Virus record (IMG/VR): IMGVR_UViG_3300049215_000323
Span: 1 to 40,582 of that record
Source: a virus
Reading direction: 5' to 3' (one strand)
Length of the DNA: 40,582 nt
Shown here in pieces: positions 1 through 40,582 of this stretch (position 1 is its first letter; every line of letters starts with the position of its first letter). The translations under genes were made by a program, and so were the position numbers. Under the pieces are notes generated by a model. That model saw nothing but the letters and a program-made list of their open reading frames with translations. It had not been told where the DNA came from and did no database searches.

Positions 1-268
1 CACGAGCCGGCCTTGATCCCCGAGCCGGCCTTGATCCCCGAGCCGGCCTTGATCCCCGAGCCGGCCTTGATCCACGAGCCGGCCTTGATCCACGAGCCGG
101 CCTCGATCCCCGAGCCGGCCTTGATCCACAAGCCGGCCTTGATCCCCGAGCCGGCCTTGATCCCCGAGCCGGCCTTGATCCCCGAGCCGGCCTCGATCCC
201 CCAGCCGGCCTCGATCCCCCAGCCGGCCTTGATCCACAAGCCGGCCTTGATCCCCGAGCCGGCCTTGC
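1..268. repeat. 18-bp tandem repeat array, left part
   Basis: Fifteen consecutive 18-bp units of the type GAGCCGGCCTTGATCCCC, without any indel. Variation is confined to a few bases: TTG/TCG before ATC, CCC/CAC after it, and GAG/CAG/AAG before CCGGCC. Each unit carries GATC and GCCGGC. The array is coding on the minus strand and continues at the right end of the window, so it is the point where the circular map was opened. Confidence 0.97.
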
Positions 269-428
269 AATGAATGGCCCCTTTGGCGACGACGGAGCCT
301 TTGAACACGACCCAGCCCATCTCGGCCTCTATCGTGATGTTTCCTTCATAGGCCGAAAGATTAGGACCGATATACTGGCCGTCTTTGACCTGTTCGGCGG
401 TCACAACGTGAGTTGGAATTTTATCCAT
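1..428 (-). CDS. AG-x-x-I-x hexapeptide repeat protein, N-terminal part (gene continues across the contig end)
   Basis: ATG at 428 is preceded by GAGGACATCGCG, a good ribosome site, 15 bases after the terminase small subunit stop. About 55 non-repetitive residues (starting MDKIPTHVVTAEQVKDGQYI) lead into 15 copies of a six-residue unit of the form (S/W/L)(G/W)I(K/E)AG, encoded by an exact 18-bp tandem repeat. The frame stays open to base 1 and is continued by the right end of the window (40113-40582). If the ends share one base, the whole gene is 897 bases (298 residues). The regular Ile every six residues suggests a left-handed beta-helix or similar solenoid; this is inference from periodicity. 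Its role is unknown. It sits between terminase small subunit and a run of small leftward genes. Two other frames also stay open over the array but lack a proper start and non-repeat flanks. Confidence 0.85.
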   Translation of the reverse strand, partial: MDKIPTHVVTAEQVKDGQYIGPNLSAYEGNITIEAEMGWVVFKGSVVAKGAIHCKAGSGIKAGLWIKAGWGIEAGWGIEAGSGIKAGSGIKAGSGIKAGLWIKAGSGIEAGSWIKAGSWIKAGSGIKAGSGIKAGSGIKAGS

Positions 429-442
429 CGCGATGTCCTCGG

Positions 443-1003
443 TTAATCGTCGGAGAGTTCCAATAAGGCCCGCCGGGTGATCACGTTGATATCCAGCGTC
501 ACGTCCTGCTTTTTGCGCCATTGATCGGGCGCTCGGTTGGTCAGAATCAACTCGATAGCGGCCACGTTCGGCGGATAATGCTTGGTGTAGTACTGCTCGT
601 GAACGTAGTCCTGGCCGGTTGTGGGGTCCTTCATCTTCGTGAAATGCACCGCCTCGTGGCTGTAGCCGAGGCCCGCCGCATGCAGCGCCTTGACCTGTTC
701 CGCCGTGAAGCTCTCACCGCCTCTCGTCCTTGCCTCTCGCATCGACGGATTCGCTTCCATCCAGCGATAGAAGGTCGCGCTGCTGATTCCGAGGCGCTTC
801 CACATTTGCTCATCGGTGAAGCTGAGCCACGCCATCGTCTCGACCTGCTGATCCGTGATCGCGCCCTGATACCGGGTCTGTTTGCGCCGGGCCTCGGTGG
901 CGAGCGCCAGGGACTGCGCCTTGGACATGGGCTTGCGCTTAGGGTGACGGGTCTTTGAGGTCCGCTTGGCCTTCGGGGGCGCATTGGAGGAGCGGCTAGG
1001 CAT
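443..1003 (-). CDS. Terminase small subunit-like DNA-binding protein
   Basis: This 186-residue protein has a basic N-terminus (about residues 1-45). A helix-turn-helix stretch follows at about 50-85 (FTDEQMWKRLGISSATFYRW). The C-terminal part has a motif common in phage small terminases, a KHYPPNVAAIELILTNRAPDQWRKKQDV-like segment at roughly 143-170. Such proteins recognise the phage packaging site and load the large subunit. The ATG is preceded by GAGGTGCGCCAAG and overlaps the upstream gene by 8 bases. On the circular map the large subunit lies about 4 kb downstream on the same strand, with other genes between. The assignment rests on the HTH plus the C-terminal motif; another HTH DNA-binding role is less likely. 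Confidence 0.75.
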   Translation of the reverse strand: MPSRSSNAPPKAKRTSKTRHPKRKPMSKAQSLALATEARRKQTRYQGAITDQQVETMAWLSFTDEQMWKRLGISSATFYRWMEANPSMREARTRGGESFTAEQVKALHAAGLGYSHEAVHFTKMKDPTTGQDYVHEQYYTKHYPPNVAAIELILTNRAPDQWRKKQDVTLDINVITRRALLELSDD

Positions 1004-38844: not shown

Positions 38845-39210
38845 TCAAGCGAGGTGGCCAGGCGTGGCGAGGGTCACATTCGCGAGCGCGGCAATCAGGG
38901 TTTCCACGGCCCGCTGGGCGGTCGGGCTGAAGAGGAAACTTTCACTGATCGATTTACGCAGAAAGTCGGCGGCCTCTATAGGGCTACCGCGCTCGCTGAT
39001 CGGCCCTTCCTCCTGAGCCTCGGTGGTTGTGTGACTGAACGGCTGGCCGACCGGCAACAGGTTGTTGGCCCGGTTGCGGAAGTCGTTGCAGCAGGCGATC
39101 CACCCCGAGACGAAGGGCACCTCCAGGCGTGGGCTGTCGGCCTCGTGGCCGTAAATCCGGCGCTGGCCAGCCATGAAGCTGCGACGGGCATCGTTCAGGG
39201 ATTCGCTCAT
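38845..39210 (-). CDS. Hypothetical protein, 121 residues
   Basis: The start is fixed by an ATGA overlap with the DUF1643 gene. The protein (MSESLNDARRSFMAGQRRIY, GWIACCNDFRNRANNLLPVG, SFLFSPTAQRAVETLIAALA) is mostly helical with a CC pair at about 40. No family recognised. Confidence 0.6.
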   Translation of the reverse strand: MSESLNDARRSFMAGQRRIYGHEADSPRLEVPFVSGWIACCNDFRNRANNLLPVGQPFSHTTTEAQEEGPISERGSPIEAADFLRKSISESFLFSPTAQRAVETLIAALANVTLATPGHLA

Positions 39211-39824
39211 GAGGTCAGTTCTCCAAAGGGCATCGGCAATTGCGTGTACGGCACATAGAGCGGATGGCGCGGTGAGCCGTCCTGGGTGGTCCCAAGGCAT
39301 GCGAGCTTTATCCGCGACCCCTTGAACCACTTCACCACCTCGGCCGCGCGCCCGGTCTTACCGAGCCAAGGCTGAGAGCCCCATGCGCAGAGGACAATCG
39401 GATTCCCCACCAAGGCGCCGTGATCGCCCATGCGGCGAATGAAGCGGTCATTCATGGGGCCGACGACATCGGTCGAAGAGCCGAAGAACTGAACCGCGAC
39501 GATCTTCGGATCGGTCGCGCGCCAGGCGAAGAGGTTGCAGACCTGAATGCCCCCGAAGCCCCACCGCCCGGCGAAGCCCATGCACTTGCGGATGGTCGGA
39601 TCATCTTCCTGCCCGTCCGCCGTGGAGGGGTTGAGCATGATGATGGCCAGCTTCGTGTTCATGCGAAGCGCCTGGAGCGAGCTGTCAATGCGCTCGTCCC
39701 ACGCCACCTCGATATCCTTCACCGGGCCGAAGCGGTCGATGAACGGCTGCATGGTCAGGGGCGACCAGTCTCGGATCAGCCAGTAGCGATAGAGGCCGTC
39801 CTGGCTGATCCCCGCGTCGGCCAT
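39207..39824 (-). CDS. DUF1643 protein
   Basis: This 205-residue protein is read from ATG 39824. RYWLIRDWS opens the domain, followed by KLAIIMLNPSTADGQEDDPT, IRKCMGFAGRWGFGGIQVCN, LFAWRATDP and VGPMNDRFIRR, then VLCAWGSQPWLGKTGRAAEV. This matches DUF1643 with its LNPSTAD and AWG signatures. DUF1643 is found in bacteria and phages and its activity is not known to me. The reading frame stays open and protein-like for about 20 residues above the ATG (KPVDQSDNIARIKARGY), so an unrecognised upstream start is possible. There is no clear ribosome site. Confidence 0.85.
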   Translation of the reverse strand: MADAGISQDGLYRYWLIRDWSPLTMQPFIDRFGPVKDIEVAWDERIDSSLQALRMNTKLAIIMLNPSTADGQEDDPTIRKCMGFAGRWGFGGIQVCNLFAWRATDPKIVAVQFFGSSTDVVGPMNDRFIRRMGDHGALVGNPIVLCAWGSQPWLGKTGRAAEVVKWFKGSRIKLACLGTTQDGSPRHPLYVPYTQLPMPFGELTS

Positions 39825-39855
39825 GTAGCCCCGCGCCTTGATCCGCGCGATGTTG

Positions 39856-40116
39856 TCAGATTGGTCTACCGGTTTTCCTCGTGATCCACCCCGCGCTCTC
39901 GCGGAGCTGTGAGGCCTGCTGGTGCAATTTCTGGGCCGAGGCGCGTAGCTCCTTGCAAGAACGCTCGTGCTCATCGGCCTGGCGAAACAGCGATGTCGCC
40001 TCGGCCTCCAGGAGACGCGCCTCCCAAAGCAGGGTGGCGTTCGTGTCATCCCAATTCGTGGCGTTGGATGGGCGAGACTCGGTGTGCACGTCCTCAATCG
40101 GATCATCGGCCATCAT
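39856..40116 (-). CDS. Coiled-coil hypothetical protein, 86 residues
   Basis: ATG 40116 forms an ATGA junction with the end of the repeat protein gene. The protein begins with an acidic disordered segment and continues as a coiled coil (WEARLLEAEATSLFRQADEH, LRASAQKLHQQASQLRESAG) to a basic end (GWITRKTGRPI). It is coupled to the repeat protein, so the two may act together. Function unknown. Confidence 0.65.
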   Translation of the reverse strand: MMADDPIEDVHTESRPSNATNWDDTNATLLWEARLLEAEATSLFRQADEHERSCKELRASAQKLHQQASQLRESAGWITRKTGRPI

Positions 40117-40582
40117 ACGGTCTCCGTCTCAACCTTCGGAGGGACGTGTTCGCCGAAGGCCAATACCCCTCCCCTTATTTCCGCCCGGAGTTGAGCGTCC
40201 TCTGGCGCGGGCACTCTCCATATGCATAGCCCAACCATAATGCGCAGTCGAACCTGAACCCATTTGGCGGAGACAGAAAGGCCGGCCTCGATCCCCCAGC
40301 CGGCCTTGATCCCCGAGCCGGCCTCGATCCCCCAGCCGGCCTTGATCCCCGAGCCGGCCTCGATCCCCGAGCCGGCCTTGATCCCCCAGCCGGCCTTGAT
40401 CCCCGAGCCGGCCTCGATCCCCGAGCCGGCCTTGATCCCCCAGCCGGCCTTGATCCACGAGCCGGCCTTGATCCCCGAGCCGGCCTTGATCCCCGAGCCG
40501 GCCTTGATCCCCGAGCCGGCCTTGATCCACGAGCCGGCCTTGATCCACGAGCCGGCCTCGATCCCCGAGCCGGCCTTGATCC
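40113..40582 (-). CDS. AG-x-x-I-x hexapeptide repeat protein, C-terminal part (gene enters from the other contig end)
   Basis: This is the continuation of the gene that starts at 428. About 17 further 18-bp units, (S/W/L)(G/W)I(K/E)AG, are in the same frame as the stop TGA at 40113-40115. The array is followed by a non-repeat cap of about 57 residues: [40 protein letters not shown], then [15 protein letters not shown]. From memory this cap, with its '(V/A)GLC(I/T)WR' segment, resembles caps of bacterial and phage proteins with similar AG-x-G-I-x repeats. Two other frames in the array also stay open but start and end without biological features. The stop overlaps the next ATG (ATGA), which supports this frame. 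Confidence 0.85.
40277..40582. repeat. 18-bp tandem repeat array, right part
   Basis: About 17 units of the same 18-bp repeat as at 1-268, again without indels, bringing the visible total to about 32. Base variation is limited to the same positions as in the left part. The two arrays do not share a terminal overlap longer than one base, so the true number of units is not fixed by this sequence. Confidence 0.97.

Follow-up and report, generated by a model that had tools for sequence, protein, structure and literature searches.

Phage proteins built on a variable 18-bp repeat array and predicted to form capped beta-solenoids

A tandem array across the ends of a phage contig best read as circular

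The window, a stretch of 40582 bases that makes up a complete IMG/VR virus record, starts and ends within one 18-bp tandem array. Its first 127 bases are an exact direct repeat of its last (1-127 and 40456-40582, both inside the array), and because these ends are equal the window is best read as a circular genome of 40455 bp. TRF reported the array as two pieces, 40281-40582 (score 520) and 3-267 (score 453). Pasting the contig ends together directly broke the reading frame on account of the 127-bp overlap. With the overlap removed, the joined array consists of 24 intact 18-bp units plus one degenerate unit, within a joined ORF of 256 residues on the minus strand that runs from a likely start at 428 to a stop at 40113. 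The features of the locus are as follows.

1..127, no strand: left copy of the terminal direct repeat, a circular assembly overlap
40456..40582, no strand: right copy of the terminal direct repeat, exact match to 1-127
443..1003, minus: upstream gene, terminase small subunit (PHROG 309, E 4e-24)
437..440, minus: GAGG resembling a Shine-Dalgarno site, after the TerS stop codon and before the ATG at 428 (from sequence)
267..428, minus: N-terminal cap, 54 residues, MDKIPTHVVTAEQ...AIHC, conserved and aligned with 31 relatives
1..266, minus: array part one, units 1 to about 15 (TRF and joined unit table)
40290..40582, minus: array part two, units about 15 to 24 (TRF and joined unit table)
40113..40289, minus: C-terminal cap (ends VETETV) and stop, cap conserved in relatives
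39856..40116, minus: next ORF downstream, 86 residues, translationally coupled, weak matches only

The GAGG lies 8 nt upstream of the ATG at 428, and the stop codon of the solenoid gene overlaps the start codon of the next ORF (ATGA). Every one of the six frames is open across the array, so openness could not prove the coding frame, which had to come from relatives; by this comparison the minus-strand frame is the coding one, the same frame being encoded in 130 viral stretches. The gene sits between terS and terL, an unusual place, and not in an obvious early operon. Its adjacency to the small terminase gene, which an earlier note on this DNA had called unusual for such a protein, is a peculiarity of the window phage. 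A gene for a DUF1643 protein (39207-40106, Pfam E 2e-32) likewise lies between the two terminase genes, downstream of that for the solenoid.

The repeat unit AAG GCC GGC TCG GGG ATC encodes K-A-G-S-G-I. The window array varies only at unit positions 1 (A/G, giving K/E), 11 (C/G/T), and 13 (G/T), in each case in the first or second base of a codon, and every difference is a replacement, with zero synonymous differences and zero indels. The variable residue pairs are SG (13), WG (6), SW (3), and LW (2), with K in 18 units versus E in 6. A DGR origin, for which the variable positions should be template adenines, was rejected, as unit positions 11 and 13 are without A. The earlier note had described about 32 units in a 298-residue protein, with the same restricted substitutions and no indels. 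The array is real and its substitution alphabet was borne out; the unit and residue counts were too high because bases 1-127 and 40456-40582 had been counted twice, and freedom from indels holds for the window array but is not general, as one relative (L017) has four 7-residue units.

The longest exact repeat within the window array as assembled is 77 bp, so a k-mer of 127, the usual largest of metaSPAdes, should traverse it. The chance that a contig would start and end inside the array is about 1%, and we suspect that population variants or lost or merged units caused the break. Because the contig breaks there despite the modest length of its exact repeats, 24 units is an estimate only. Contigs that end inside such arrays mis-state copy number, a warning that extends to the relatives, 17 of whose 80 viral contigs terminate inside the gene.

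A family of capped hexad-repeat proteins and its predicted fold

Searches with the joined protein found 130 related viral stretches, of which 80 were kept (L009-L088). A profile search of one-per-species prokaryote genomes added 51 stretches from many phyla (49 loci, of which a few are probably chance matches). Weak genome matches in GC-rich or low-complexity sequence (L133-L137) resembled chance and were left out of the count, and TerS used as a query returned no relatives. Members have common end caps around 10-36 hexads of the form I-[K/E]-A-G-x-G. The N-cap consensus is MxTLKITKxDxxxxxxYxGxxDxxxFDGxIEIExxLGWVxF and the C-cap consensus LSIxCK...LRIFAGLCxWR. The window protein belongs to type 1, with the N-cap, an I-[KE]-A-G-x-G array, and the C-cap LSISCK..LRIFAGLCIWR, while type 2 proteins have a helical N-domain, ACxxGxxWFxxxFPxGxEYQxVLD, and a different C-cap.

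No Pfam, PHROG, or NCBIfam family matched above its cut-off. The best family match for the window was LpxD (E 4e-7, 29 bits versus a cut-off of 207), and L055 gave a sub-threshold match to the FapA beta-solenoid (E 3e-6). Sequence matches to PDB entries 9e5c, 5vj4, and 8uut were low-complexity or weak and were discarded. In open-access papers, which exclude most subscription journals, we found neither the motif nor the family described, nor hypervariable phage repeats of this sort. This is apparently a large and undescribed phage protein family; the beta-solenoid tandem repeat is known as a kind, and its form, place, and manner of variation here appear new.

Several loci depart from the typical organization. 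In a Manatee Spring podovirus (L138:5004-5327, MW202524), the N-cap and C-cap matches are nearly adjacent around a very short array with a possible frame break, which could be a contracted or decayed copy. In Pigmentiphaga humi (L127:5791-6672) and the viral locus L194, the hexad rhythm is kept by units that have diverged and are not homogenized, possibly an older state of the family. Because these two loci retain rhythm without homogeneity, the rhythm looks like a constraint of the fold and unit homogeneity like a recent state. In an archaeal virus, Methanosarcina virus MetMV (L141:3971-4642), a weak N-domain match is fused to an alanine- and aspartate-rich repeat.

AlphaFold2 (32 family members) predicted a capped beta-solenoid with a strand every six residues, at pLDDT 94.8 for L036 and 90.4 for the type 2 protein L105, these models being of relatives and not of the joined window protein. 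In structural comparisons with VIA-align, the left-handed beta-helix (LbH) acyltransferases LpxD, LpxA, and GlmU ranked first, with the best DALI-scale Z (about 15-19) but an rmsd of 11-12. They resemble the models in their six-residue period, three strands per turn, and triangular prism. Because the distance-based score is blind to hand, a high Z at such an rmsd suggests a right-handed helix, the mirror hand of LpxA and LpxD, with handedness read here from the contrast in superposition rmsd and not from coordinates. The sequence agrees with a right-handed reading, because the buried pair is Ile-x-Ala, the reverse of the acyltransferase order of small-x-aliphatic, and the classical motif [LIV]-[GAED]-x2-[STAV]-x was found in only 183 of 1596 hexads (11%). 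Unlike these enzymes, the phage proteins have no acyltransferase domain, and the LpxD models scored below their own cut-off.

The best low-rmsd match was to tapirin C-terminal domains (4wa0, 6n2b; Z 14.4, rmsd 3.1 over 166 residues in VIA-align), and tapirin adhesins were among the low-rmsd matches of both Foldseek and VIA-align. Tapirin differs in being a cellulose-binding protein of Caldicellulosiruptor, at 14-15% identity, and we know of no repeat array in its C-terminal domain. Pentapeptide repeat proteins such as Qnr and MfpA are right-handed solenoids, likewise encoded by tandem repeats. They differ in having a five-residue period versus six (18 bp) here, in their A(D/N)LxX repeat, which these arrays do not have, and in acting as acidic DNA mimics, whereas the arrays here are charge-mixed; no pentapeptide Pfam family matched.

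Charge order along the arrays supplied independent information on the number of hexads per turn. Across 74 viral arrays, K and E at hexad position 2 were anticorrelated at lag 3 (z -4.1, 0/2000 shuffles), with lag 1 also low (z -2.7). The lag-3 signal was replicated in 36 separate arrays from prokaryote genomes (z -4.8, 0/3000), where lag 1 was not low, and in a pooled set of 99 arrays lag 3 stood out alone at z -5.5, all other lags staying within 1.4. The signal is a property of the family, as the K-rich window array taken alone carries none, and position 5 has no lag-3 pattern. Anticorrelation three hexads apart therefore indicates three hexads per turn, an arrangement that would give opposite charges stacked in neighboring turns. 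We hold the fold and the family with high confidence.

The same geometry raised the possibility of a bactofilin- or FapA-like polymerizing scaffold, with rods stacked end to end in the infected cell. Bactofilins are right-handed, three-sided beta-helices of triangular geometry (PMC12448750), as the models here suggest for the phage proteins, and the sub-threshold FapA match of L055 points the same way. However, the bactofilin family PF04519 did not match the window protein or eight relatives at E up to 10, and caps at both ends would be expected to block end-to-end stacking. Bactofilins were also absent from the fold-search matches listed, an absence to which the search tool itself gives no weight. 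The phage genes also differ from bactofilins in that their hexads are near-identical in DNA and variable in number, and in being mostly early genes. We consider a scaffold very unlikely indeed.

Variation within and between arrays

Among 1585 units, G occupies hexad position 4 in 97% and E or K occupies position 2 in 96%, while position 5 takes W, E, S, L, D, or other residues. Positions 1 (I) and 3 (A) showed pN 0 and pS about 0.05-0.055 within arrays; because units were selected with a search pattern that itself partly fixes these two residues, the informative contrast is that between synonymous and replacement changes. Position 5 had pN 0.46, and overall pN/pS within arrays was 1.8.

Copy number and order also differed among relatives. 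Two viral contigs from different metagenomes, L012 and L056, are 99.85% identical over flanks of 5.4 and 3.7 kb and have 23 versus 13 units, a difference of exactly 10. The pairs L062/L079 and L020/L029 have common C-caps and largely different array order. Copy number ranged from 10 to 36, although most loci come from short-read metagenome assemblies and single values may be collapsed or chimeric. Copy numbers of 0, 1, and 2 modulo 3 were about equally common, and a rule of multiples of three, corresponding to whole turns, was tested and not found. Unit order was near random apart from lag 3. Balance of K and E within each array was also tried and rejected, as the dispersion was above binomial. 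Rapid change of the arrays is strongly indicated. Compared across the family, the sequences combine a fixed predicted core with variable, apparently exposed positions, with hypervariable copy number and order. The earlier note had proposed just such a hypervariable solenoid, its fold kept and its surface variable, a reading that the models and the position-specific pN/pS uphold; the two outcomes it had named as counting against it, a constant array and a non-solenoid prediction, were both tested and neither occurred.

Rapid turnover could also reflect a selfish or neutral minisatellite in a dispensable gene, with no selection on the surface. Fast expansion and contraction, the frequent breaks of contigs in the array (17/80), and the patchy distribution of the gene would all fit such an element. 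The Ile and Ala residues are nevertheless never altered even though the same codons change synonymously, pN/pS exceeds 1 at the remaining positions, K and E follow the lag-3 pattern, and the caps are conserved across many phyla. This evidence is already strongly against a minisatellite, which we regard as highly improbable.

The main rival holds that folding alone explains the variation: mixed residues at positions 2 and 5 would fix the register and prevent misfolding or aggregation in a protein that serves as an inert spacer or scaffold and whose length is of little consequence. Anticorrelation of K and E at exactly one turn, 10-36 copies without a multiple-of-three rule, and an order close to random except at lag 3 are all as expected on this account. 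It accounts for position 2 but not for the stronger variation at position 5, which is the most variable position (pN 0.46) yet lacks a lag-3 pattern. Moreover, fewer residue types would suffice to set the register, and the caps and gene are retained in very different phages. We consider folding alone a serious but rather unlikely explanation.

Genomic context and a possible role early in infection

The PHROG families recurrently flanking the relatives were exonuclease, DNA methyltransferase, primase, helicase, integrase, repressor, and antirepressor; the 25 commonest families on either side include none of head or tail. In a prophage of Ruminiclostridium cellobioparum DSM 1351 (L105), the solenoid gene follows genes for an integrase, a metalloprotease, a repressor, a Cro-like regulator, and one small gene, and precedes a small gene and those for an exonuclease, a single-stranded DNA-binding protein, PAPS reductase, and DNA polymerase. 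The PAPS-reductase-like gene of this early operon is at L105:8999-10342. Paenibacillus senegalimassiliensis (L097) is another carrier, and further genomes have Erf, RecT, antirepressors, and repressors near the solenoid gene. The downstream gene on the same strand overlaps or lies within 5 nt in 29 of 53 loci, and a search among the loci for a recurrent partner gene or binding partner found none.

The solenoid gene was present in none of 23 close capsid relatives of the window phage, some of whose records are fragments (a positive control was run), and TerL was detectably like that of the window in only 6 of 25 carriers. Because capsid relatives are without the gene and few carriers have a similar terminase, its distribution is that of a mobile accessory gene, apparently moving between unrelated phages. 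The earlier note had suggested a virion part or length ruler, and a tail or head rod, ruler, or receptor-binding solenoid would suit the adjacency to terminase in the window and the low-rmsd matches to tapirin adhesins; beta-solenoids are common in phage fibers. Against this, the annotated neighbors in relatives are mostly early genes, close capsid relatives do not carry the gene, and copy number shifts freely between phages with near-identical flanks. We regard a virion component as improbable and the suggestion as not sustained. From the neighboring genes we infer early expression, and an early, non-virion role is likely; the protein is probably cytoplasmic.

Type 2 N-domains are also found with other repeats. 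ORF55 of Edwardsiella phage GF-2 (BAP28926; L139:5001-6047), annotated as a 'putative collagen-like protein', carries a type 2 N-domain and lies directly after the gene for anti-terminator N. Its nine-residue repeats, IGSSG(DR/ND/YY/DS)A(R/Q), have variable positions. In Komagataeibacter phage phiKX1, PhiKX1_180 joins a type 2 N-domain to nine-residue AGFSGxxAR repeats and adjoins an antirepressor gene. These proteins are like the type 2 relatives in their N-domain, their neighbors, and their variable repeat positions, but they differ in the length of their repeats, which are not homologous to those of the window, and in their C-terminal part. The record of phiKX2 (L202, L203), a phage with a named host whose genome was deposited as linear, both starts and ends inside the sister array. 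It is 99.96-100% identical to phiKX1 across the compared flanks. Within the first 2.5 kb the two differ once, by an N-to-D replacement at one of the variable positions of the repeat. Searches of E. coli genomes found no DNA matching GF-2 ORF55 or L193, which masking of simple repeats by BLAST may explain. Pairing of one N-domain with either six-residue IKAGWG or nine-residue IGSSGxxAR repeats would tentatively extend the principle beyond one repeat.

We propose that the array would form the main part of a beta-solenoid that is capped, three-sided, and probably right-handed, with three hexads per turn and about eight turns in the window protein. The Ile and Ala of each Ile-[K/E]-Ala-Gly-x-Gly hexad would fill the core. 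The three flat faces would carry position 2, with K tending to stack over E of the next turn, and the three edges would carry position 5 (W, S, L, E, D, or others). The gene would be an accessory one that moves among phages, temperate ones included, and usually sits in the early operon close to genes for repressors, antirepressors, and recombination. Its 18-bp units would be gained, lost, and reordered by unequal recombination with frame and fold intact, and selection would maintain the mixture at positions 2 and 5. The changing surface of this early cytoplasmic protein might bind, or evade binding by, a fast-evolving host component, either a defense or a takeover target. We judge this explanation as a whole, which names no target, to be evenly balanced between right and wrong; the part that has the protein face host or defense is a tentative proposal.

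Our more general reading, put forward as a possibility that we ourselves doubt somewhat, is that these early phage proteins pair conserved caps with a solenoid surface reshuffled by hexad recombination, a device independent of reverse transcriptase for making new binding surfaces or escaping defense. If this is true, a large and apparently unannotated phage family would keep fold and surface cleanly apart in its DNA, at a place in the operon that phages often give to anti-defense genes. It would also offer a case in which diversification by repeat shuffling can be tested, as well as a solenoid that is nearly designable.
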